The notes under the pieces were generated by a model. That model saw only the letters and a program-made list of their open reading frames with translations, did no database searches and was not told where the DNA came from. 64,000 nt of DNA from Helicostylum pulchrum (Eukaryota; Mucoromycota; Mucoromycetes; Mucorales; Mucoraceae), in NCBI GenBank assembly GCA_025677825.1, contig JAIXMO010000031.1:1-64000 (forward strand), in the 5' to 3' direction. Each line of letters starts with the position of its first letter. The first letter of the stretch is position 1. A program made the translations under genes and the position numbers. Shown here in pieces: positions 24,353-40,333 of the stretch.

Positions 24353-26516
24353 CAGTGTCATCAGATTCTAGAACTTCCCGAATGCTGAAAAAGCAAACTT
24401 GGTCAAAACTGAAAGAATTATATATGCTGTAAAGTCTAGAGTCCCATCGGAGGCGAATACTTATAGCATTTGATAATTTGAAAATCACATTGTTTCACTA
24501 CTTTATTTACCATGACTTAATGGCATAAAAAAACTTGGGTACGATCAAAGTAAAAAGGGTTCTCAGGTCATTTGTTGCCACATTAATGCATAATAAAAAA
24601 GCTGTTATCCTTTATGAATTGTATATACAGTGTCATGCAAAATCGTGAAATTAAAATAAACAAACACCGTTTGCGTTTTTGTTATTTTTACAGCTTACTT
24701 TACTAAAATGTTTTAATGACAACTACAAGAGTTTATAAAACAGGGCCTATACAAAAAAATAATCGGGATTACACCAAAAATGTCAATCTGGGGATACTAC
24801 TGAAAAAACATATTACCAAGAAAGGTAATGTGATAAAACAGGAAGGAATAGCTATAAAATACGTTATAGACTTGCATAGTAATCTTACTAAGAGAAAAAC
24901 ATGATACTATCAAGATCAAAATTAGTAAATTAATTTCTGGTCTGTCTGTTTTATGTTTATAGTTATTATACTTATTGGATGCCGATATTATCAGTATAAT
25001 AACTTTGATAGAGTACTAAAAACAACAATACCTCAATTTTGATAATACAAGTATTAAAAACCTTGTACTAACCGATACTTCCCAGTTGGCAATCGAATGG
25101 CCTCGTCGGGCCCGCTCGGATATCTATTTGCGGATAAAATATTACGTTGAATAAATGTAGAACCATTTTATTATACTTTTGGCTGGTTTTTTTTACCGCA
25201 TCTCGGTAAAGTAAATTATTTGAGTTTGCGAGTAATTTCGAATATGACAGCGGAAGAGAGGAAATGTTTCCTCTTAAAGTAAAAAATTCGATTATATGTA
25301 AGTTTACCTCTAGATGAAAAGAGAGATGTATAGTATATTTTCGGAAGAATGTAAATAGAGCTATGTTACATTTGCTTAGAATACTTTAACATGGTACTCT
25401 TGTAAGCAATCTTTATTATGACGAAAAAGTACCTTTATTTTAAAATTAAAAATGTCGCAGCCTACATATATACAATACGTATTTTGTGTAAACCCGACAA
25501 AGTTTTTTTCGTAGGGTCTTCAAAAAAAAACATGAGAAATAAAAATCAAGAGACATATTCACAGCAATAATGACAGTTTAACCAATTGTAAGCAACTAGT
25601 ATCGCTTTATACCCAGAGTTTAACATTACTTTATACACTGCCTTTTCGGTCGCCAAGAATAAGCACGCACTTTTTTTTTTTTACAAATACCGATTACTAC
25701 TTGCGCCATAAATGATCTAGTATAATTTGGCTACAAAAAAAACTCTATAAAAAAAAATAATCGAGATTGTGTGGGAACCAAATTCATGTAAAACACACCA
25801 AAGTTAAGCGGACTTTTTTCTTTTGCAAATTTAACTTCTTCATGTAACTACTTTATATTGTATACAAAGGCACTGCTTGACAAGCAAAATAGATTTTCCA
25901 ATTTTAGCTCTTTGAATAATCAAATATTTTTTAAAAAAACGTATATTAAATCCAATTGTACCTCTCTACCTGAATGTTTAACGAAAAAAAAAAGTTCAAG
26001 TGTAAAAAAAATAAAGGTGACACGAAATCTATAAAAGAACATATTTGGAAGGTTACACAGATCTCTTATAAACCCTCGTCGCCCTTTCCATAAAGTTTTT
26101 TAGTGTGAACATCTATCAAAATATACTATTGCCCAACCAACGTTTGATTTCTGCCCTTATTATAAACAAATGCACAGACAATTTTTTTTTTTTGCAAGCT
26201 AAAATAGTTGACACTAATTTTAATATAATTGTGTTTCTATCGTGAGAAGAATATATTGGACTCTTTTTAATACAATGTCCATTTTAATACCATGTCCTCT
26301 TTTATTTTTATAGAACTTTTATAAAAACGCTTTTTTTTTTTTTGCAAAGGGCAACGGTATATTTTACTGCATTTGAAATTGTAAAGGTATAACTCTAATT
26401 TGATTCGTTACCCAAGGAAGGTGACTACGTTTTAAAAATGAGTTAAATAACAAATAAAAAAAAGCAATCTTCTATCTTCTCTCTATCTTCCTTCAGATAC
26501 AAAAAAGTATTTTAAA
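22369..26516. other. 4.1-kb gene desert
   Basis: No supported gene on either strand. Features seen: a C-run of about 17 near 23632-23648, an A8-10G repeat at 24309-24351, a perfect 12-bp palindrome at 24019-24044, and a frame of 62 codons at 24716-24904 (Lys/Thr-rich, no domain). The stretch could hide decayed mobile elements or non-coding RNA. Confidence 0.5.
24019..24044. repeat. Perfect 12-bp inverted repeat with 2-nt loop
   Basis: The arms AATTTAAAACCT and AGGTTTTAAATT flank TC. The arms pair without mismatch. No gene ends near it, so a terminator role cannot be argued. Confidence 0.85.
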
Positions 26517-28420
26517 ATGACCAACGCTATTGCTTACACTAAAATTGCTGCAGACGAATTCAAGAATTCCAAATTGTACAAGTCTATCAGTATGTATACA
26601 TTATTCATTTTTTTTTAATAATTCAAGATAATTTTAACCTGTTTCCCCTTTTTTTTTAGATTTGGCTAGTTCAGCTCTTGGAACTACTGTAGTTGATGTT
26701 ACCGATGATTTCTTTGCTCCTGCAAACATGATGCTTAACCCTGAACCTGCAATTTATTGTCCTGAAAGATTTGTCGGTAAGAAATCCTAAAAAAAAATGC
26801 CTCCTTTACAACTTTTGCTAATCTTTCGTTTTTAATTCAGACACCGGCTCATGGATGGATGGATGGGAATCCAAGCGTCACAACCCCACTTATGATTGGT
26901 AATATAAATATATATAAAAAAAGGGGAAAAATATACAAGTACTTATGGTTTATATAGGTGTATTGTTAAACTTGGATATGCTGGTTCATTTGAAGGTTTT
27001 GACATTGATACCAGCCATTTCACTGGAAATCAAGCACCTGCTGGCTCTGTCGAAGGTGCCTATTGCCCTGAAGGCGATGTTCAAGCCAAGGATGTTCAAT
27101 GGACCGAACTTCTTCCCAAGGTCGTTCTCCCTCCCAACTGTCAAAACATTTTTGCATTGGAAAAGACAACTGCTGTTTATACTCATCTCCGTTTAAATAA
27201 TTATCCCGATGGAGGTATTGCTCGTTTCCGTGCTTATGGTGAAGTACATCCTACTCTCCCCAAGGATCTCAAGTAAGTTTTTTTTTTTTTTTTTTGTGTA
27301 ATAGTGTACTGATGATATGTTATAGTGAATTGGTTGATTTAGTCTACGTTGGTAATGGTGGTCGTTCGGTTCAAGTAAGTGATGAACATTACGGTCCTGG
27401 TGACTTTTTGGTCTTACCTGGTCGCGGTAAGAACATGGGCGATGGATGGCAAACTGCTCGTTCTCGTGTTGAAGGGTACTCTGATTTTGTTGTCTTCCGC
27501 TTGGGCGCCAAGGGACATATCTTACAAGCTGAAGTAGATACCTCTCATTTCAAGGGCAACTTCCCTCGTCAAATCAAGTTGGAAGGTACTTACTCCGAAT
27601 CTGTTGTTCCCGAGAAGGACGCCAAATGGTCTACTCTTGTTGAACCTTCTTCCACTGGTGCTCATGGTGTCTTTTATTTCAATACTGCTCACACCGATAA
27701 AGTCTTTACTCATGCCAAAATTTCCATTATCCCTGGTAAGCAGATTTTTTATACAACAGAGTAAAAAAAAAAAAACTAATATTTTGTTAATTAGACGGTG
27801 GATTCAAGCGTCTTCGTCTTTACGGTATTCGCGAAGGTGGTAAAATCCCTACTTTACCCATTGTTTCACCCTCTATTCCTAAAAACCTCGTTACTGCTGA
27901 ACCATTGACATCTGAAGCATACGCACCTTACGGTCAAGTAATCCAATCTGGATTTGCCGAGTTTGTTACAAGTGCTAACCAAGGCACCGCAGAAAAGCAT
28001 CATCAAGTAGCACAAGTTGTCAACAACTTCCCTAACGGTAAGGGTAAGATGCACATGTGCGTCTTCCAATGTCTTCCTACCAATGAATTGCCATTCACCG
28101 TCAAGTTATTGGAAAGACATCCTTATTCCAGCCAAGCCTTTATCCCCATGACAGATAGCAAGTCTCGCGGTTACCTCGCTGTCGTTGCTCTTAACGGCGC
28201 TGATGATAAGCCAGATATGTCTACTTTAAAGGCCTTTGTCGCTACCTCTAAACAAGGTATCAACTATAACCCTGGTGTCTGGCATCATCCTATGGTCGCC
28301 TTGGAGTATGAAACCGATTTCGCTGTCGTTGTTCATGAAAGTGGTGTTCCTGAAGACGACTGTCACGAAGTTGATACCCCTCATGTTGTTGTTCAAGTTC
28401 CCGGATACCACATTTTCTAA
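26517..28420 (+). CDS. DAL2-DAL3: Fused allantoicase and ureidoglycolate lyase
   Basis: Six exons (26517-26589, 26660-26776, 26841-26898, 26958-27272, 27326-27735, 27795-28420) encode 532 aa. Residues about 18-345 form allantoicase: two related halves, with NLASS.LG....D, MDGWESKRHN, IDTSHFTGNQAP in the first and GDGWQTARSR, VDTSHFKGNFP, RLRLYG in the second. From about residue 360 (LTSEAYAPYGQV) to the end the protein is ureidoglycolate lyase: ERHPYSSQAFIPM, AFVATSKQGINYNPGVWHHPM. Family knowledge: allantoicase turns allantoate into ureidoglycolate plus urea, and the lyase turns ureidoglycolate into glyoxylate plus urea, so one chain does two consecutive steps of purine breakdown. Separate genes (DAL2, DAL3) do this in yeast. 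All exons keep phase and no stop separates the domains. Confidence 0.94.
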
Positions 28421-28643
28421 ATACTCTAATTTTTTATATATATATGCTAACATAGTATGTATTCATGTACATACCTCTCTCACATTTATAAAACTGGAAT
28501 CCTTAAAAATAAACAACAAAAAGTCATGAATCAAATTTTTTTTTGGCATTTCTAAATTTTTAAAAGCTACGCGGTAGCGGCTCTATTTTAAGGGTGGCTG
28601 AAACCTGGAAGAAATCCACCCTTATAACATACATTTCGAACAA
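28421..28643. other. 3' flank of the allantoicase gene with small hairpins
   Basis: Within this stretch an inverted pair AAGGGTGG (28590-28597) and CCACCCTT (28616-28623) could form a hairpin, next to a smaller GCTAC/GTAGC pair at 28566-28578. No gene. Confidence 0.5.
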
Positions 28644-28736
28644 TGGATAATTACTGCTTAAGCAGAAAAAGCTCACTGAGATACCTGAGCTTAAATAATC
28701 GCTCACATGAGAAACCATTACTAAAATTAGAAGTTA
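28644..28736 (+). repeat. Dispersed repeat, copy B (left part)
   Basis: It matches the left part of copy A (12615 onward): TGGATAATTACTG, AAGCTCACTGAGATA, TTAAATAATCGCTCAC, with changes between. It then ends in TTAGAAGTTA at 28727-28736, after which similarity to copy A stops. Confidence 0.8.
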
Positions 28737-28747
28737 TAATAAATATA

Positions 28748-28770
28748 ATGCATCCACTCAAATGGAACAC
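28748..28770 (+). repeat. Left inverted end
   Basis: ATGCATCCACTCAAATGGAAC, preceded by TATA. It lies about 55 bp from the stop codon of the minus-strand transposase fragment, a normal distance for a Tc1/mariner end. Confidence 0.65.
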
Positions 28771-28821
28771 ACTGTGAACCTCAATCTAAACACTTTTCAA
28801 AATTAATATGGAAGATTTTAT

Positions 28822-29205
28822 TTAAATAGGAACTTTGTTTAAACAATTTTCGAAATGGTTTTTTGAGTGTTGCGTAATGTTGACGAGATGAGATAAAGGA
28901 ACAAGATTACATGCCTCAGTTATTCTTTGTGCGAGCGTTTCAGACTCCATAAGCTGATTACACTTTAGTTTATGCTTAACTATAGCCCAGAATTGTTCGA
29001 TTGGATTCAATTCTGGAGAGTAAGGAGGAAGATATACGCATTTATAATTCTTTTTTCTATTCTCTACCATCTGGTTTACTTCCATTATACAATGAATTGT
29101 GTGTTCATTGATGAGACTGGGCTTAATATCAATATGAGGAACAATTGGGCCAGATCAGCAAGCGAAACTCCTGCCGTAGTAACGATAACAAAAATGAGGG
29201 TATAA
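28822..29205 (-). pseudogene. Scrambled Tc1/mariner (DDE) transposase
   Basis: The minus strand from 29085 to 28822 reads the transposase C-terminus with the hallmark YLPPYSPELNPIEQFWA block, which holds the third catalytic acidic residue. Immediately beside it, but on the plus strand at about 29094-29205, lies the middle block VFIDETGLNINMRNNWAR with the first catalytic Asp. Further plus-strand debris of the same protein extends to about 29400 with stops. The two parts are in opposite orientation, so an internal inversion has occurred. The N-terminal DNA-binding domain and the middle catalytic Asp are not visible. The copy is dead. Confidence 0.85.
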
Positions 29206-29399
29206 ATTGAAAATGACCAAATGTCTTATAGAGAGCGTGCATTACCGAGGTGGGATAATTAAGGTTGTGACCCCGAGAAAAAGGAAAGGATAAACTGTTG
29301 GTAATAATTGACATATGGTGTAGTATAAAAGGTTGCGCCAGTAAAAAGGAACTTTTAATTACCAAATAGGTGTCGAAGATGTCAAGATACTGTGTTGAG

Positions 29400-30798
29400 A
29401 ATTGAAAACATAGAAAGAAACCAAAGGTGGGGCGCCAGGGCCGAACGGTGTTGAAACCGCGGCTAATGAAACTTTTCTAAGTTTCCTCGTTGTTATACGT
29501 CTTGATACGACAAATGGCAAAGTCCTTGTTCCAAATAAGTATATGTAAGTAAAGATGTATATATAAGTGTTATATTACATACCAATTAATCAGAGTCATT
29601 AGCCACTATGTGCTGGTTACAGCCATAATGAGTAAATCATCGTGATATATTGTTCTGAGTAGTTAAAAGTAAAAGTAAGATTAATTTAGATGGGCCTCGA
29701 GTTAAATACATAATATTTATATTTTGATATATCTTACCTGTACTAAAATCAAACATTATTTGTAGTCAACGGAAACCATGTAACTACCAGAATAAAGGGA
29801 CCACATATCGGAATAAGATTAAGTAGACGGCATTCTTGGGTAAATAGATAAATGAGCTGCGTTCGTACTAAACCTTGGCATTAATAAAAACCTCTTGCCA
29901 CCATTAAAAAACCTTTCGAGAGGAAAAAAATTAAGGGGTACAAGAGGAAAAGATAACCAAAGAGTAGCATCAGCTTGAAAATATAGAGGCAGCGGTTGTT
30001 ACCAAAGGCCATAAAAGATTACTAACTAGCAAGAATTTTAGCAGGCCTTCAATAAAGGTAAGTAACCTATTGTAGGATTGATTTATTATGAATAAGGATA
30101 TATACTTTACCAAGAGGATATGTAGATTTATAACACCTAAGTAGGTATTCGCTTTTCTTTCAGCAACCATCTTGATTATCAGAACAGTGTATTTCTATAA
30201 AATAAGTAAAACTGAGTACCGTATATGAAAACTATTCTTTTCACTTATGAAACTTATACTTTCTTCTTTTTTCTCGGATAATGCAGATAAAAAAAAATAA
30301 AGAAAGAAAGAAAAAAGTTTGAAAAGAAATGGAAGGTATTTATAAGAACAATGAAAGTTGATTTATAGTTTGAGATGTCCTGATATACGAGTTTTTTCTT
30401 TTCTTATTTCAATCCTTTTATGAAAAAGTAGATTCAAAACAATACGTTAAGCTACAAAAATGAGGATATGTTGACACCCTCCATTCTATTGAAATACTTA
30501 GTGTTTGAAAGTATACTTAAGTACCGTAAAAAAGATCGAGAGTAACAACATAACATGTGTATACTTTCATTATACTTGAGTTTCGTCCATTTTGATTGGT
30601 GTAGGATGTCAATGAAACTTTATTCTAAACTCAAAAATAATATTTATTAAAAAAAAGAGAAATCTCTCGACTTCTAAACCATGAAAAATAGAAATATTTA
30701 GCGCCTACTTTCACTATTTTCGAGTTTGGGTTGTTTCGATTGACGTAAAAGACGAATAGTTGAGTAATAGCATTTTTCAGTGATATATTCTTTTGGTT
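29400..30798. other. Degenerate sequence inside the island
   Basis: 1.4 kb with stops in all frames. This is where the N-terminal half of the Fanzor gene would be expected, but no RuvC-I motif or other TnpB segment was found. Confidence 0.5.
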
Positions 30799-31962
30799 GA
30801 GCGCTAGAAGGAGTCTCTTCGCCCATTGCAGGTGTGAGTCCGCCGTTACTGATAAATATAGGTACAAGTGAAAGATCTTCTTTTTACACAGCATTTATTC
30901 TAATATTCATTGTTTCGCTTTATACTTATAGTATTCATGAGTTTATGAAGTCGTACCGACATCGAGAGAATAAGGGGTACGCATTTTCCAATCGACAGGC
31001 GTCACAAGATCATGCTGCTAGAGTAGTAATTGGGACAACACATACAGATGAACCATTCAAACTTTGTCATACCTCCACTTCCAAACGTCGATACAGAAAA
31101 AGACGTTTGTATCGCGAAACCATTAAGCAAATTTATTCGCAGCGCCCTTATCCTGCTCGTCCCCTTCCAGTCCGTGATTTGGTTCAAGACTCAAGAAGAA
31201 CGGTAGTGGCGTATGGGGACGCATCTCTCAAAGGAACGTATAAAGGGAACGCCCCTGTTCCCGTAAAGGTAAAAGAAAAACACGTTATAAAGTGTAGTAT
31301 ATATTTAGTAATTTTGGTTGTATATATAGAGTATACAAAGAGCAATCGCTAACAAAGCTATTGTTATACCAGTAGACGAATTTCGTACGTCCGTCACCTG
31401 CTCACATTGCCTCAGAAGATTAGAGAACGTGTATAACGATACGTTCTTAGAATGTAATCACCAGTAATATTTTCCGGCACATTATGAATGTTGAATATCG
31501 CACTCAACCCTGTTTAACTTATAGAAAAAAAACATCGTTATTATGATCAAGACAGCGAGAGTAACGACTGCCGAGCGTTTTTAAAATGTCTGGACGAAGA
31601 TGGTAACATCCTACATAGATCAAGTGCTTGTCCAGAAGGTAAAGTATGCATTCTTGATTATTATAGAAAATCAATCTTATACTTTTTTAAGCTCAAGAAA
31701 AACGTCGCTTGATTTATCCACTGAAGCAATGCAAGGAATGTCCTATGAGTGCAAATACAGACATACAGGTATTTAACATACATATGTATATAACGTATAT
31801 TTTTTTAATATGTACCTTTTTTAGTATTGGAACAGGGATGTGAATGCGGCAACCAACATCCGTGAAATTCTTTTTCGGTATATCACGCATGAATTTGATT
31901 TGAATTCGAGGCAGCCTCAATTGTCTCGCATAAGAGAAATAAACGATGATGACGAAAACTAA
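30799..31962 (+). pseudogene. Fanzor / TnpB-type RNA-guided nuclease, C-terminal half
   Basis: Open segments at about 30802-31268, 31330-31463, 31525-31638, 31692-31768 and 31825-31962 are separated by short introns with good splice signals. In order they give: a YGDASLKGTYKGNAPVPVK block, a VPVDEFRTSVTCSHC segment with the first Cys pair, a second Cys pair (CKEC), and WNRDVNAATNI, the RuvC-III motif with its catalytic Asp. A zinc ribbon interrupting the RuvC end is the mark of TnpB and of eukaryotic Fanzor proteins. Family knowledge: these cut DNA guided by an omega RNA. The N-terminal half, including RuvC-I, is missing. The exon 2/3 joint is out of phase by one base in an A(8) run. The copy is probably inactive. 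The next gene starts 74 bp downstream. Confidence 0.82.
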
Positions 31963-32036
31963 GCGTTTTTAAGTCTGGTTAAAAAAAATAATCACATTTT
32001 TACTTTAATAAATATCAAATATTTTTATTTTAAACA

Positions 32037-34185
32037 ATGTCAAGTAATAACGCTACATCTATTCATATCAGTTGTTATACGCCCATTTCAGAGAGACTTA
32101 CCGTACCTTTGACCAATTGGGAGAAATCCGTAGTAGACTATATTCTCCTACACGGTGTCAGATTTGTGAAAGGCACAACTAGAACCGCAGAGGGGCAAGA
32201 GAGGGCAAAAGCTCAGCGATTAAATGCCACCGAAGGTCCCAAGCCCAGAACCCGGTATATTGATTATGTTTTCAAAACGTATTACTCTTGTCATCGTTCT
32301 GGTGAAAAGAGACAAGCTAAAACCGAGCAAAATAATAGCAGCGAAGGATCTAGAAAATTACAAAAAAAAAGTAAAAAAATTGAATGTACTGCTAATTTAG
32401 TAGCTACCTGTTATAAAAGCGATCCTAATAATGTTGTCTTGCATCACACCGGTAACCATAATCATCAGATTGGTGGTCTTGAAGACTTGAAGTTTCTGCC
32501 ATTGTCGCAAGTAGCTAAACAGTTGATTGAGCAAAGATTACGCGAAGGATTTAGAAAGAGAGACACCAGAATTTCAATTCAAAACCATTTTCTTCATTAT
32601 AGTCAAGCCAACTTGAATACCGATGTAGAACAATCTCTTGGTAACGAAGCTCAAGTTATCGTTCACCGTGATCAGATGGTTCACTCCACAGAGATTTATA
32701 GCATCTATAAAAAAATCCAAAAAGCTTTCTACAAAAAAGCAGATGATCAGAAAGAATCTGTTAAACTTTGGTTGACCGAGTTAAAAGAAAATGAAGGATA
32801 CGATACTTTTTTGGCAGATAATTTTGATAGCACCTTCTCGTTTGGATTTGTCTCACCATGGAAAAAGGCACTCTTAATTGAAAGTGAAAGTGAAAGTGTA
32901 TGTCTGGATGTCACTCATTGTACCTCTAACATTGATAAGGGGATACTTTACACCATCGTGACCCGTCATCCATGGACTGGTACAGGATGTCCTGTAGCAT
33001 TCTTTTTTACGACTGATCATTCGATGTTACCAGTAAAGCATTTTCTTTACTTCTTGAGATATACCGTTCACTTTTCGAGCTTGAAAAAGATCACCATCGA
33101 TATCAGTACTGCCGAAAGAAATGCAATCAATTCTGTCTACCCAGAAGTTGTGATTCAGTGGTGCATTTTCCGCGTCGCAAGAGCCTGGATGGGTAAGATT
33201 CGCGAGTATATCAAGCTTGGAAGTTCAGCAGCCAACGCCCGGGTACATAGAGCAATTATTACCAATTTTAAAAGAATGATGTGGGAGAAGGACACCTCTG
33301 TTTTTCTGCCAATGCTTAGTGAATTTGTGATTACTTATGCAGCATATCCTGATTTCATCCAGTACTTTAAGCGACAATACTTGGAGAACGATGCTTTTAT
33401 GCGCTGGTCTGTCGCCTTTCAGCCTCAAGTTTTTACCAGTATGGAGACCAACAACTATGTTGAGAGCTGGCACAATCAGCTTAAAACGACATATTTAAAC
33501 AGAAAAAGAAATAGACGCGTTGATATATTGATTTTCATCCTTGTCAGAGATATACTTCCTGACTACGTTCAAAACGTAAATAGAAGGTGTTGAATATCGG
33601 CAAAATGAGTCCAGAAGAAAGAAGAAGAAGGGCTTGTGAGATGAGTGCAGAAGATGCGAACGTGGCTACTCTTGTAACAATGATTGAAGAGCTGGAAGAG
33701 CAAACTGGATACAAGGTTCGCTCTTTTTCAAATGAGGAAGTGTACTACATTATTCAAGTGGAACAGGATAGCATTAAATCTTGTGGTTGTAAGGATTTCC
33801 GTTGGAACCGTATCTCTTGCAAGCACATGTACCTTCTCAAACGTTTGCACAGGGATTTAGCTACTTTTGAGCGTGAGTATAAAAAAAATATCAGCATTTT
33901 TTTTTATTAAAAACTAACCATTATGTATTTTAAGCCGTCGTGTACGATGGAATTAGAATGGCAAGAGCTGAAAAAACAGCAAACGAGGAACCTGTACTTG
34001 AACCTTCTACCGTATTCGATTTTTCTGACTTGATTGCAACATTATCTATGTATCAACACAATCCTCGCAATCTAAATGAGCAACAGTTAGAAAGTATCAA
34101 ATCACACGTAGATGGAATTAGTTTGTTACTTCAAAACGATGACAGATTACCTTCAAACATAAATTTACAAACGCAACGTCGATAA
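32037..34185 (+). pseudogene. MULE (Mutator-like) transposase with a frameshift
   Basis: About 700 aa if read through. Order of parts: an N-terminal FAR1/WRKY-GCM1-like zinc finger (YSCHRSG, ECTANL, HHTGNHNH), the MULE catalytic domain with acidic residues in CLDVTH (D291), TIDISTAE (D355) and YVESWHNQLKTTYL (E476), then a SWIM zinc finger (CGC, then CKH; about 33780-33825). The DDE residues are all kept. The frame breaks once: after YVQNVNR near 33580 the reading frame stops at TGA (33591-33593), while the continuation (LNIGKMSPEERRRR) is open one base off. A 62-nt intron at 33873-33934 then joins the last exon, which ends at 34185. One indel would explain the damage, or a sequencing error. 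Nearest use: movement of the island or of related elements in trans. Confidence 0.88.
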
Positions 34186-34322
34186 AATAATAAAAAAAAA
34201 ATAGTAATAAAAAAAAGAGGCCATGATTGATATTTAAAAACCACTTATCTGTTAGGTAAATAAGGGCGTTCTCGTGAAGGCAATAGAAAACTTTCATAAC
34301 ACTTTTTCTGTTTCACCAGAGC

Positions 34323-36282
34323 ATGTCTTATTTCGAAGAAACTGCCCCTGAGGAGTGGGATCTTCTTGAAGCTATCAAAACGAACTTAAGCGAGAAAAGT
34401 TTTAAGTCATATCAGCAACTGTTTGATTCGATTCGAAATAATTTGGAACGATTTGACAATGAAACAGCAACTGACTGGAAGCAAAACTGGACGGTAGGCT
34501 GAACAATTTCTTGTAATTAGAAACGAAACTTGACATGAATTTGTTAGAGAATCACTCAAAATTTTTTATTAAAATTGAGCCCTACAACTTCTGAATCCTT
34601 TTCTCACCAATCGACGTAAGCACATCATCATCACTTCTTCTGCAAACCGAAACTAATTTTATGCGATTTATGCAACATTCTCTACTTTTAAGTGTGAATT
34701 TTGAAACAGTTAATGCTTCAAGCTTCATAAATAGTGTCCATGGAGATGTTCATTCAGCTTATACGGTAATTATTTGTTCACTTTTTAAAAATTAGGTATC
34801 ATTTTCACTCACTCTCTAATAAAAAACGTCGCGTTTTGTATAGACTAAAAGGTAATATACCCTCCATCCTACATATCCTAATTATTGAAACTAACCTTTA
34901 ATAAACCTATAGAAAAAATGGTGACGATAGCGGTGAAGATTTAAATATTAAAAAGCAAAAGCATTTGGAAACAAGGTAATCTTTTCAACGTCCCTCTATA
35001 AATTCAAATAACTTTACAGTGTTAATGAAGCAATATTTATTTAGTGGCGTATTATCAGAAGAACAGCCCGTTTCTTCACAAGAATCACAACCTTCATTGT
35101 ACACAACTGATACTGACTCTACTGAAGTGAATTTTGACAGAATGAGACCTTACGTAAGCAGATTGGCGTATAAGATAACCTTCGATAATTATTTATACTA
35201 TTCACTATAGTTTTTTTTCAATGAGGATAATATTAATAGAATTTGTTTCAATTTTAGAAATGAATGCTTGAAACAAGAGCTGGTTTATAAAGATCTGCCT
35301 GACATTAAAAAAATGGCTGTAAATCATGTTTACTTAGTTGACCAAGGTACAACAACCTCTACTATTCATGTGCAAAGTGATTTTTTCTCACAATTCGAGC
35401 TGAATGAATCATATCCTTCTTTAACAAGAGAAGATATAGTCGCTATCACTCTTATAAATCAAGTACGTGTGGATAAAAAAATACGACATTGTTTACTTGA
35501 TTAATTTGCTATATTTAATAGAATCTCAATATTCACTGTAAAGAGAAGGCAAGGGATATAGCATTGGAGCACTTGACCAAGGATAATAAAAATCCAGTTG
35601 CAAAAATTATGTACAATTTGTAAGTAGTTAACTTTTTCCGATTTCCATTCAATAATAGAAATATGAATCTCTCCTTCGTAGGCTTAATAGCTGTGATAAT
35701 GCTGAAAGCGTATATTCAAAAGATGAATCACTCTTTATTGGAAGGGCTTTAGATCCGTTTTTAAATGTGATATTTCCTGCCGGTGGTACTATGACTAGAG
35801 ATGGGTAAGTACTGCAGTATTCATGGTACATGTATATGCAAACTCATAACCATCTGCGTTATGTAGTCATTTCACATTTTTAATAGGAAATAGTGACTTG
35901 AAGCCTGATGTGAAGTACAGTGCTAAAATTGGCTCTAATATATTCGATTTTTTAATATTTGAAGTCAAGTGTCCGAACTCTGTTGCCAAAGACGATTTGT
36001 CCAAGATGTCTTTGGAGTTGCAGCTTATGATTAATCGTATGATAGACAACAATGTCAACAAGCCTGTCGTTTATGGAGTTGTTGGACAAGGTAGAGTTAT
36101 GAACAAAGTATTGCAAAGAGCAAATGGCTAACTCGTTAAGAGTAGGTTTCGATTGTGACGTTTATAGAATGGAATTGGTTGCTCCTTTGGTCTATTTACT
36201 GATCAAGGTACGCTCATTTTACCTTCCTCGAAGCACATATGACTTGACAGTTGCCCTTACAACTATACCCATCTTACTGTAA
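34323..36282 (+). CDS. Multi-exon gene with PD-(D/E)XK-like signature, intact
   Basis: Eleven exons keep one frame and give about 421 aa: 34323-34493, 34548-34615, 34693-34765, 34844-34851, 34913-34975, 35045-35167, 35258-35462, 35522-35619, 35682-35804, 35894-36090, 36146-36282. The N-terminal third is helical and acidic; the middle is variable. Near residue 320 comes KPDVKY, then 18 residues after its Asp the strand FLIFEVKCP. This Pro-Asp ... Glu-x-Lys spacing is that of PD-(D/E)XK nucleases, followed by a helix (KMSLELQLMINRM) and a strand with VVYGVVGQGFDCDVYRM. I infer a nuclease-like fold; activity is not shown. Several acceptors had to be chosen over nearer AG sites to avoid stops. 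It follows the MULE gene by 137 bp in the same orientation. It resembles orphan families repeated in Mucorales genomes (from memory, unverified). Confidence 0.7.
34844..34851 (+). other. 8-nt microexon of the PD-(D/E)XK-like gene
   Basis: ACTAAAAG between a TATAG acceptor and a GTAATA donor. Without it, the neighbouring exons join into an immediate TGA; with it the frame reads Thr-Lys-Arg-Lys-Asn. The following intron has a perfect ACTAAC branch site. Confidence 0.6.
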
Positions 36283-36458
36283 CTTCAACAACTCACTTGC
36301 AGCCAAGTATATAAAACAAGAAGAAATATTATGTCTGCTGAAAGTGAACAGTGTTATTGGACAAAATCCCCTTTGATTACCTTAAAACCAACCTTTTAAA
36401 AAAAATTCGTTTATGTAGAATAAAAAGGAATATACAGACACGAAACCGTTCTAGCTTC

Positions 36459-36761
36459 TTACGAGTAGTAAACATACTCCCTCATATCGGAGCAAGTATA
36501 ATGCACCATATATTGAATAAATTTAACCGTTGAATCTTCAGCTGTACCTCCTTTGTTAATGTCAAACTTAAATTTTACCATGAACACTGATCTGATACAA
36601 AGGTTTTTTTTCAGATACTCCTCGAAATCTGTCAGTTTATTTAAATTGTAAGGATCATCTTCAATCTCGAAATCCATAGCTTCAGTTCCATCTTTCTTCG
36701 CAATGTTGCCGGACCTGTCTTCACGTAAAAAAAAAAGCTCATTACGAATTATGAAAAACAA
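36459..36761 (-). other. Minus-strand open frame, unrecognised
   Basis: About 100 codons, acidic in the middle (FEIEDDPYNLNKLTDFEEYLKKN). No family recognised. Its place between the PD-(D/E)XK-like gene and the right inverted end suggests a fragment of another element gene. Confidence 0.25.
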
Positions 36762-36783
36762 AAATAAGAATGTTCAGACTTAA

Positions 36784-36920
36784 GTTCCAATTGAAGCTCA
36801 AAGGGTGTTCCAAATTAAGTTCAAATTTTGTTTTAATTTAATTGGTTGAGTGTTCCAATTTATTTTCAAAAAATGTTCCACTGATTTCAAAAAACGTTCC
36901 ATTTGAGAGTGGAAGCACTG
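36784..36920 (+). repeat. Right inverted end with five GTTCCA subterminal repeats
   Basis: GTTCCA occurs at 36784, 36807, 36852, 36875 and 36896. The last lies in GTTCCATTTGAGAGTGG, the near complement of the left end. CACTG and TA follow at 36916-36922. Repeated short motifs just inside an end are typical transposase binding sites. Confidence 0.7.
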
Positions 36921-37051
36921 TATTGGTTTTTATTTTTTAAAGAAACAGAAAACGCTTTTTGGACCCAAGTTATTTAATACATATTTATTGTTTCAAATAT
37001 ATCTTTGATGAAAAAAAAAAAAAAACGTCTTTTTTGTTTTTTTTTCGATTT

Positions 37052-37591
37052 TCATATTTGGGGGTCAACCCCTTTTGTATTTTTGTAGTTATTCTATATT
37101 TACCTCGGATCCAATTTGCCTAACTTTGTGGATGGTATTGAACTCGTTTAGACTCTTCTACTCCATTTTAAATTATACTTTTAATGCAAAAACTGAAAGA
37201 GTAATCGCTGATTTCGACCTTTTTTTTTTGGGTAAAAAAATACACTTTTTTTAATGTAACATCGTGTAACCATTTTCAGAGCTTCGCAACTACATAAAAT
37301 GTAGTTTTTTTATTACCGTGTTTGGTTATAGCACCGAATGTAGATATTTAAAAATTATATGTTGAATGTTCATAATAAAATGCTACATCTAAAACTGGGC
37401 GAGAAAACGCGCTTTAAAGAAATCGCCATCTTAACTCAAATTTGAGCGGAAAAAAAACGTCTAAAACGGTGATTACTCGGTCAGTGTTTTTATTAAAAAT
37501 ATGATTCTAAATGGATTAGATGCACCAAAAAGAGCCTTTTATTATTTCAAAATAACCTCAAAAACACAAAAGGGGCTGACCCCCAAAATGA
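37052..37591. mobile_element. 540-bp MITE-like element
   Basis: The left arm at 37052-37093 (TCATATTTGGGGGTCAACCC, then CTTTTGTATTTTTGTAGTTATT) is matched in reverse by the right arm at 37551-37591 (AATAACCTCAAAAACACAAA, then AGGGGCTGACCCCCAAAATGA), with a few mismatches over about 41 bp. The interior has no open frame. Length, long inverted arms and lack of coding capacity fit a miniature inverted-repeat element. A clear target duplication was not identified. Confidence 0.7.
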
Positions 37592-37795
37592 CTAAAAATG
37601 ATCAAAAATGATCGACTGACGAAAAATATAAAAAATCAAGAAAAATATAAAACAACATGCAGTTTTCAATTTTGATATTAAAGACATTGTCCTAAGGACT
37701 AACATTGACTGAGTAACTTGGTCAAAAGAATCATTTCCTGACGTTCAATAATACAAAGAAAACACCTTATTCCGATCACTGTGAAAGTGACTTTT

Positions 37796-37956
37796 TTAGA
37801 AGTTACTTCTAAACCTTTACTTAAAAAGACGCGTTTTTAAGATGGTAATGGACGAACATTGGTGGATTATAACACTTTAAATAGTTCTTAAACTCTTTCA
37901 AGTTATTGTTAAAATAAATATGCTGTATATCGTTTTCTGCAAGAGCTCAAATATTA
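37796..37956 (+). repeat. Dispersed repeat, copy C (right part)
   Basis: It begins with TTAGAAGTTA (37796-37805), the same 10 bp that end copy B, then follows the right part of copy A (CTTCTAAACC, GGATTATAACACTTTAAATAG, GCAAGAGCTCAAA) with point changes. Confidence 0.8.
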
Positions 37957-38685
37957 AATTCTATAAACATTTTTATTGCATTCGATTAAAAAAAACTGCA
38001 TAGCTATTTATTAGAATACTACAGAACAATGCATTTTCAAACTACTAGATATGATATATTTAGAGCAATGACGTTTATATACACTATAGGAATCACTTAT
38101 ATGAGTTATTTTAAGAGCAAGATCGTATACTAAATGAACCACAAAAGAAAATGTGCCTGTCAGAGTTCAACAACAAAAAATATGATTCAAAAAAAGTAAT
38201 ATACTATCACTTGGAATAGACGTAAAAAAAATAATACTTGTGCGGCATTTCTACAAAGTACTGAATAAATAGTTATTTCATCACAAAGCGTAGTATATTC
38301 AATTAGTTATATCCACTATTAAATCGAACACCCTTTCAATAGAGCCGTCAGTGTATGCAGTATTTTTCTAAATGTGATTTAAAGTTACTTTTACGAGAAA
38401 AGGTAGAATCAAAAACAAGATAAAGCGTGAGGACATGTGATTACTTTCCTGCAACTACATAAAACTTTTTATTAATTACGCAGAATCTGAGATGTCGGGC
38501 ATTATTTAGCATTAGGTAAAAAAACAATTTGCAAGTCGACGGGAAAATACATTGCCGCTGGATAATAGGCGAATACGAAAAATCAGCGGCATAAATGAAA
38601 AAAGCGTTTTTATTTATTTATTCATTTATAATAATATATGCGAGATGGTAATGGTACATAACAAAACAAAAAGACTCTTCTCTCT
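37957..38685. other. Intergenic stretch
   Basis: No supported gene, only short interrupted frames. Confidence 0.45.
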
Positions 38686-40333
38686 CTATAATTTAGCTTG
38701 AGGTTTAGCAGGAGCCTTGAAAAAGACTTCACAAATCTTACGACGTTGAATTTTACCAGTGGCAGTCTTGGGCATAACGGAAGTAACATAAAAGCGCTTA
38801 GGAACCTTAAATTTAGCAAGCTTAGTTTGACAATAAGCGATTAATTCGCGTTCGATTGATTTTTCGTCATCTTTTACGCCGGGCTTTAATACTACGGCAG
38901 CATGGACCTCTTGACCATACATATCATCAGGTACAGCAAAACTGACAGCTTCAGCAACCTTGGGGTGACTCAACATGACTGAGTCCAATTCGATAGGAGA
39001 GATTTTTTCACCGCCGCGATTGATCAGTTCCTTAATACGACCGGTCAAGATCAAGTAACCATCTTTATCTTTTTTACCTTGATCACCGGTACGGAAATAC
39101 CCCTCCTTGGTAAATGAACCGGCTGTAGCTTCAGGATTATTTAAATAACCCTTGGTGACGTTCTTTCCGCGAATACAGACTTCACCCAACTCTGCAGGAT
39201 TTCCTGCATCGTCCAAGATGACGACTTCGACACCTTGACCGAGGCCGACGGATCCAGCCTTATGAGGACCACGATGAGGAAGTGGGTTGGATGTCATTTG
39301 ATGAGATGCTTCAGTCATAGCATAAGCTTCCAAGACAGGGGCCTTGAAGGATTCTTCCAGTTGGTGTAAAGTTGAAGGTGCAAGACTAGATGAACAAGAA
39401 CGGATAAAACGAATACTAGGTACTTGACTAGGAGGAGAACGAAGCAAGATTTGATGAATTGTGGGTACAGCAGTGTACCAATTACATTTGTTATCTTGGA
39501 AATCTTGCCAGAAATGGGAAGCGCTAAACTTACGAGGAATGACAGCAACACCGCCAGAAAGTAAAGTAGATAATAAACCACAAATTAAACCGTGGACGTG
39601 GAAAAGAGGCATTACAAGTAACGTACGGTCCTTTGGTGTTAACTCATAAGTGTCGACGATGTTTCTCATTGAAGTTAATAAATTGAGATGAGTCAATGGA
39701 ACACCTATTTTTTTTTCGGCTATTAGGATTTCACTGTTGCTCTTTTACTGTTTTGTTTTTTTATTTACCTTTAGGTCTACCAGTTGTACCACTGGTATGT
39801 AATAACAAAGCAGGTTCATCAGGCTTGGGGGAGAAAGTTTCGATAATGCGATGAGGTTCATTGGCCAAGTTAGAAGGTACACGAGAATTGACTTCCATAC
39901 CTGTGCCATTCCAATGAACTTCGACAATAATAGCACCTTGCTTTTGAGCAGCTAATACAGCGGGATTATTTTTTTCATTTAAAGCACCTTTAGGTAAGAT
40001 CATAATGGTACTTTTTGCGTCTTCCAAATAAAAATTAAATTCATCTTGTGTATAAGCAGGGTTTAAAGGAGAAGCGATCAAGTTCATGTAGGTAGAAGCC
40101 AAGAAGGCAACAGTAAATTCAAGAGAGTTGGGGTAACTAATGGAAATAGAGCTACCGGGAGCCAAGCATCGTGCGGGAACTTGACCAGCTAACTTTCTGG
40201 AGAAATCATAAAGAATATCTAATAACTGACTGTAGTTAATATCACTGGGTACTTGTGCTGATTTAGGAATAATAACTGCTGGATGCGTAGATCCTTTTTT
40301 AGTGTTAAAAATTTCAAGTAATGTATCAGCCAT
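38686..40333 (-). CDS. PCS60: Peroxisomal acyl-CoA / oxalyl-CoA synthetase (Pcs60-like)
   Basis: Two exons (39769-40333, 38686-39704) encode 527 aa. It is an AMP-forming synthetase of the ANL superfamily: LLLHTSGTTGRPKG (P-loop, split by the intron after Lys-Gly), PLFHVHGL, EAYAMTEASHQM, GYFRTGDQG, LTGRIKELINRGGEKI hinge, and TATGKIQRR with the catalytic Lys. The last three residues, Ala-Lys-Leu, are a peroxisomal PTS1 signal. Length and motif wording match the fungal Pcs60/Fat2 and plant AAE3 group, shown elsewhere to make oxalyl-CoA and so break down oxalate; a 4-coumarate-ligase-like activity is the main alternative. It lies 203 bp downstream of a Zn2Cys6 gene on the same strand. Regulation by that neighbour is possible but unproven. 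Confidence 0.92.

Follow-up and report, generated by a model that had tools for sequence, protein, structure and literature searches.

A predicted Fanzor1 nuclease remnant in an internally deleted Mutator-like element of the mould Helicostylum pulchrum

The first 64,000 nucleotides of contig JAIXMO010000031.1 of the Helicostylum pulchrum assembly GCA_025677825.1, hereafter the window, contain a transposon island in which an earlier note, made from the sequence alone, had placed the C-terminal half of a Fanzor, the eukaryotic counterpart of TnpB, at 30799-31962. Such an assignment raises the questions of whether the feature is indeed a Fanzor, whether it could still act as a nuclease, and which mobile element carries it. 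Comparison with the related protein P0006 and GT-AG signals, from which the splice borders were inferred, resolved the region as follows:

30799-30861: leader of the element, joined to the Fanzor gene by a deletion
30862-30931: intron before the first remaining Fanzor exon
30932..31268 (+): Fanzor exon with a RuvC part and the YGDAS block (P0006 comparison; GT-AG borders inferred)
31330..31463 (+): Fanzor exon with the relocated RuvC-II Glu (31378-31380) and the first Cys pair (31399-31410)
31525..31638 (+): Fanzor exon with the insertion that separates the two Cys pairs (KCLDEDGN...SSACPE)
31692..31768 (+): Fanzor exon with the second Cys pair (31730-31741)
31825..31962 (+): last Fanzor exon with RuvC-III (WNRDVNAATNI, Asp at 31837-31839) and the stop codon (31960-31962)

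Coding sequence thus begins at about 30932 and not at 30799, as the tblastn match to P0006 starts at 30930 and an AG acceptor occupies 30930-30931. The exons within 30932-31962 (+) match residues 741-981 of the 985-aa protein P0005 of Mucor circinelloides, and the encoded part of the Fanzor1 nuclease is accordingly its C-terminal quarter rather than a half. The predicted order of blocks, YGDAS...GNAPVPVK followed by VPVDEFRTSVTCSHC, the second Cys pair (LKQCKECP) and WNRDVNAATNI, was confirmed on exons with GT-AG borders. Since close copies of the exons occur elsewhere in the genome, where the joined protein has 70 matching stretches, this pattern is not a product of chance; furthermore, the same order of blocks in P0005, a single annotated protein, places both Cys pairs in one polypeptide, as had been supposed. 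Given the splice sites used, the junction of the second and third exons is out of frame in the window copy, and the A-run at this junction varies from 8 to 10 in length across copies.

The joined exons matched a single Pfam family, PF07282 (OrfB_Zn_ribbon/Cas12f1-like TNB), with 27.0 bits against a cut-off of 26.3, a margin of 0.7 bits. Three relatives stayed below this cut-off (P0001, 25.5; P0002, 25.6; P0005, 20.0 bits), and hmmscan gave no PF07282 match in P0006 and P0007. Searches with phmmer returned no match for the joined window fragment alone among PDB sequences, nor for P0005 alone among PDB chains, and it is the full-length relatives that decide the identity. With a spliced copy from this genome as the query, four proteins were retrieved, all from H. 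pulchrum; residues 690-985 of P0001 retrieved 20, of which 13 were from Mucorales and the others included Phytophthora and Trebouxia. Eighteen of these 20 (P0003 and P0004 were left out) were aligned with and without the window piece. Against the PDB, the profile of relatives best matched solved Fanzor1 proteins (PpFz1, 6e-26; SpuFz1, 1.5e-25; GtFz1, 4.5e-22), and so did a further profile from these alignments (SpuFz1, 1e-25; PpFz1, 1.2e-22; GtFz1, 7.9e-20). The relatives' profile was weaker on the TnpB-like nucleases L79 (3.1e-8) and TranC (7e-4); judged by profile scores rather than by a tree, the family is closer to solved Fanzor1 proteins than it is to other nucleases of the TnpB-like kind. 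When P0005 was modelled with AlphaFold2 (pLDDT 69.2, pTM 0.47), residues 2-289 came out almost wholly helical, with parts at low confidence. The model had seven fold matches in the PDB at E<=0.001, all of them Fanzor chains; normalised by query length, their TM-scores were modest (0.26-0.30). On profile and predicted fold, the window feature is a Fanzor, in agreement with the earlier note. It should be added that PF07282 has 18 matches in the genome (L001-L008 and ten more, e.g. on C136, C158, C132, C90, C139 and C79), 17 of them over the cut-off; L002 lies in an open frame of 476 aa, and other Fanzor lineages seem to account for most of the matches.

The Glu of VDEFRTS, which had been named as a candidate for the relocated catalytic residue, precedes the first zinc Cys by exactly six residues in VDE-FRTSVT-C (31378-31401); behind the zinc ribbon, the WNRDxNAA motif (31828-31860) supplies the RuvC-III Asp. 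DPG combined with a Glu that has moved to six residues ahead of the zinc Cys is described as a mark of Fanzors in the available part of PMC10711439. The RuvC-I region with DPG is absent from the window copy, from which it was removed by the deletion; IDPG is present in L039-L042, L044-L047, P0001 and P0005, a search of L048 did not find it, and P0002 has IDSG. With an incomplete catalytic triad the window copy is predicted to be inert, and the loss of RuvC-I together with the N-terminal domains means that it could not act as a nuclease: judging by its residues, it is a remnant and not a working Fanzor. The insertion within the zinc ribbon recurs in Mucoralean relatives, as CNH...KCL...SSQC in Mucor, in similar form in Rhizopus and Lichtheimia and less exactly in Cunninghamella; it is rich in Cys and His and may form an extra zinc site.

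The remnant belongs to a larger element, a copy of what we call the A-type, in which a gene for the transposase of a Mutator-like element (MULE) follows the Fanzor:

29429..34271 (+): internally deleted, left-truncated A-type MULE-Fanzor copy, 4843 bp (4.84 kb)
30860..30866: deletion junction with the 7-bp microhomology AGGTACA, by comparison with L039 and L040
32034..33593 (+): open frame of the MULE transposase, covering FAR1-like and MULE regions
33584..33910 (+): remainder of the transposase in another frame, with the SWIM zinc finger
34244..34271: right (R-type) terminal inverted repeat, CTTATCTGTTAGGTAAATAAGGGCGTTC

BLAST of window positions 26001-40000 against the fetched copies returned two blocks, at about 29.7-30.87 kb and 30.86-34.27 kb, both 94-98% identical to L039-L042. 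At their junction about 3.05 kb of L039/L040 are absent, comprising the N-terminal Fanzor exons and RuvC-I. At the left end about 114 bp are missing (the match begins at query position 119, and the tip at position 5), and the window copy retains the right terminal inverted repeat only.

The transposase of the window scored 27.1 bits with PF10551, 0.5 under the cut-off of 27.6, and 22.9 bits with FAR1 against a cut-off of 28.1; its SWIM zinc finger (PF04434), with 20.3 bits, exceeded the cut-off of 19.6. Over 91% of the window query there is 100% identity to P0021, a 653-aa protein of strain KT1b. Precomputed PF10551 annotation is carried by 14 of 50 relatives including P0021, to which hmmscan gave 26.2 bits, under the cut-off. 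On these domain and homologue matches, the gene downstream of the Fanzor is a MULE transposase; stops or shifts interrupt the transposase frame in each of the four A copies (L039-L042) of this assembly. KT1b is described as a second H. pulchrum strain in the consulted text of PMC11385716, and the HPULCUR proteins probably come from it.

Fuller copies, anticipated as the means of recognising the carrier, were found elsewhere in the genome, and the carrier is a MULE. An A-type element is about 8 kb long and consists of 28-bp imperfect inverted repeats enclosing an intron-containing Fanzor1 gene and then the transposase gene on the same strand; tip-to-tip lengths are 7990 bp on C138, 8011 bp on C32 and 7999 bp on C108. 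The right tip is sharp, and the left tip known from the fuller copies is an imperfect match to it (GAACCTCCTTATTTACCAAACAGTTAAG / GAACGCCCTTATTTACCTAACAGATAAG). An A-type deletion derivative of 2.7 kb (L062, C94:129968-132653), with 2686 bp between its tips, lies on the same contig as the window copy, about 96 kb away. A second, B-type family (6047 bp on C87, 6738 bp on C139 and 4600 bp on C83, tip to tip) combines a diverged Fanzor, 48-55% identical to that of the window over the compared exon, with an inverted MULE remnant. Segments shared between B copies (L044-L048) and the A-type are the left 0.55-1.2 kb (95-97% identity), the inverted start of the MULE gene (91-92%) and the right tip; given these segments beside a diverged Fanzor, parts of elements have been exchanged. 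Related Fanzor sequences were also seen in rearranged contexts: in L050 (C154:40500-50400) an internal inversion has put the N- and C-terminal exons on opposite strands, and in L063 (C90:380600-385100) Fanzor-like matches lie between two R-like tips, with ACGTCA 13-14 nt outside each of them, an arrangement that misfits one simple insertion.

The target site duplications made by Mutator-like elements measure about 8-11 bp. Exact 8-bp duplications flank the copies on C139 and C87, i.e. two of the seven two-tip copies, both B-type, with a chance expectation of 3e-5 each; on C108 an A-rich candidate agrees at 6 of 8 positions, and comparison of the flanks at the remaining four of the seven gave no match.

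The sequence outside the tips pointed to a second property of these elements. An exact tip pattern search of the whole genome yielded 39 tips, of which 18 were R-type (GGGCGTTC), 20 L-type (GGAGGTTC) and one GGGGGTTC. The word RYGTCA was present 0-30 nt outside 13 of the 18 R-type tips (11 at exactly 13 nt, one at 15 and one at 17) and outside 0 of the 20 L-type tips, against an expectation of about 2% per tip from its density in the 64-kb window. The contrast corresponds to a Fisher p of 1.6e-6, or 3.3e-6 with the flank shared by C115 and C138 counted once; these values are descriptive, as most flanks had already been seen. R-type tips without the motif are C90:384831, the window copy, whose right flank lacks it, C94:132640, C116, which has ACGTAT in its place, and C139:105108. 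Four further R-like tips with mismatches show ACGTCA at 14 nt (L063 and L064), ACGTGA at 13 nt (L067) or nothing (L069). Inside the element, a word resembling TGACGTCA lies 35-66 nt from the tip at 17 of the 22 listed L-type tips. Taken at the level of these flanks, R-type ends have a one-sided target preference, and the reader of the motif would be the transposase or a host factor.

Two simpler accounts of these data have to be weighed. The Fanzor and the MULE might be separate elements that landed side by side, the inverted repeats belonging to the MULE alone. That the two genes can be shuffled is evident from the B-type, with its oppositely oriented MULE piece and its divergent Fanzor, and four of the seven two-tip copies are without a clear target duplication. 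Set against this, the three loci C138, C32 and C108, with different flanks and nearly constant length, show one and the same succession of left tip, Fanzor, MULE and right tip, and on C87 and C139 a Fanzor lies between the same two tips inside exact 8-bp duplications; independent neighbouring insertions are hence highly improbable in our estimation. The RYGTCA signal, for its part, could reflect flanks shared through recombination, segmental duplication or nesting, coupled with a motif chosen post hoc, instead of a choice of target. Indeed, RYGTCA was selected after ACGTCA-like words had been noticed in right flanks and its test drew mostly on those flanks, C115 and C138 have one flank in common, the matching flank on C166 consists of the left end of a further copy of the element, and the motif is missing from five R-type tips, that of the window included. 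Nevertheless, the 13 nt between tip and motif vary among sites, L-type tips are devoid of the motif, and both R-type tips that had not been seen before the test (C139:18577 and C158:757267, with interiors differing from A and B) carry RYGTCA at exactly 13 nt. We therefore regard shared flanks as quite an improbable source of the signal and retain a target preference of R-type ends.

A guide RNA was harder to place. The earlier note had directed attention to 31700-32050 and to a conserved non-coding segment at the 3' end; this interval, however, holds the Fanzor stop, about 74 bp (31962-32037) and then the start of the transposase gene, and a guide RNA directly 3' of the Fanzor found no support. 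Rfam had no match at E<=1 in window positions 29000-34600, and eight candidate end sequences (including window 34150-34271) folded no better than their shuffles (z from -0.71 to +1.52). A conserved hairpin at the tips was likewise discarded, as its CTTA/TAAG arms are part of the inverted repeat and are not kept in L076 and L081.

The left end nonetheless merits discussion, since a guide (omega) RNA could run outward through the left tip, with solo left ends as ghost guide-RNA loci. Only the terminal 77-78 bp are present on C93, C123, C125:394702 and C102 (L058-L061), a solo left end of 83 bp lies on C57 (L057), and in L071 (C166:49965) a 77-bp left end abuts the R tip of another element. By eye, no target duplication of an ordinary insertion was seen at L058-L061, and the genome tip search gave no R-type tip on C57, C93, C102, C123 or C125. 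In L074 a C-terminal Fanzor exon points to an L-type tip at a distance of about 100 bp. Ghost loci with a guide RNA and without the protein are reported from S. punctatus in the accessible part of PMC10432273, and the PpFz1 guide RNA has 75 nt according to that of PMC11423790. L050, which at first seemed a further case of a Fanzor 3' end beside an L-type tip, is rearranged and L075 is without a Fanzor match, so that L074 is the one candidate case left; the folding results speak against the idea. Moreover, position 77 is the expected insertion point of an R-type end, 13 bp from TGACGTCA, as in L071, so that an insertion scar explains the boundary of the solo ends equally well. On balance, a guide RNA running outward through the left tip, with the solo left ends as ghost loci, seems to us unlikely.

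How do these elements compare with known systems? MuDr-type Fanzor1 elements of Mucorales, namely ROr-4, PBl-3 and MCi-4 of Rhizopus, Phycomyces and Mucor, were described by Bao and Jurka in 2013 (PMC3627910), and they share with ours the Fanzor1 within a MuDR/MULE-type element with inverted repeats. In the part of that report available to us they are given as lacking a MuDR transposase, whereas the A-type elements encode one; B-type elements resemble them more in this respect (PMC3627910). Their target duplications are reported as 9 bp (PMC3627910), as opposed to the clear 8 bp in two of seven copies here. PpFz1 of Parasitella parasitica (PDB 9cf0), another Mucoralean Fanzor1, is among the best profile and fold matches. 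It has a cyclophilin-binding FRI insertion in RuvC, and most Fanzor1 proteins comprise 600-700 residues, according to the consulted sections of PMC11423790; the family described here differs from PpFz1 by a long helical N-terminus, as modelled for P0005, and by the Cys/His-rich zinc-ribbon insertion. The best fold match, SpuFz1 of Spizellomyces punctatus (PDB 8gkh), aligns at the relocated Glu (DEYKTS/DEFRTS). Its element is reported as a single ORF in about 2.1 kb with no transposase found between the repeats, in the excerpts of PMC10432273, in contrast to the introns and the co-encoded transposase here.

As for target choice, Tf1 inserts near the CRE-binding factor Atf1. Dada DNA transposons insert at a preferred sequence, according to the available text of PMC3706591. 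Both belong to other superfamilies, and in the present elements it is one specific end that is placed 13 bp from the motif. In the open-licence literature, at title and abstract level, no prior report was found of a Fanzor co-encoded with a MULE transposase, nor, in the open-licence literature, of an RYGTCA-type target preference in MULEs. The occurrence of Fanzor1 in MuDr elements of Mucorales is thus already published (PMC3627910, as far as available); new here, as far as that open-licence literature goes, are the transposase co-encoded with Fanzor1 and the one-sided target preference.

Taken together, it is very probable that the window holds a dead Fanzor1 remnant in an internally deleted MULE copy whose working relatives would operate as follows. 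The MULE transposase would cut and paste the element with 8-bp target duplications and would preferentially place the R end at 13 bp from RYGTCA, a CRE-like word; the target would be read on one side, by a host bZIP-like factor or by a subunit of the transposase. By analogy with characterised Fanzors, the Fanzor would be an RNA-guided endonuclease helping the element to persist, for example if it cut empty sites and repair copied the element back. B-type elements, with their diverged Fanzor and inverted transposase piece, would move in trans. A bolder version, which we hold to be doubtful, treats the MULE with its own Fanzor1 as directional: the R end would be set 13 bp from (A/G)(C/T)GTCA and the L end marked by the internal TGACGTCA, an asymmetric transpososome or a two-site bZIP would fix both site and orientation, and solo left ends would be ghost guide-RNA loci.

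Should this bolder version hold, sequence-anchored cut-and-paste insertion and RNA-guided cutting would be joined in one eukaryotic element. Two-gene elements, transposase-poor relatives, deletion derivatives and an insertion signature within the genome of one saprophytic mould would make a tractable system for asking whether the nuclease helps the transposon to persist, and the one-sided motif offers a concrete, checkable prediction of MULE site choice.

The surroundings of the window copy add some minor observations. A fragment of a Tc1/mariner-like transposase (DDE_3) occupies 28822-29154 (-), and some stretches within 28700-29428 have matches in other places of the genome, with identities reaching about 91%. 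Next to this transposon island, at 27791-28420 (+), lies a host gene for ureidoglycolate lyase (PF04115, E 1.4e-51).
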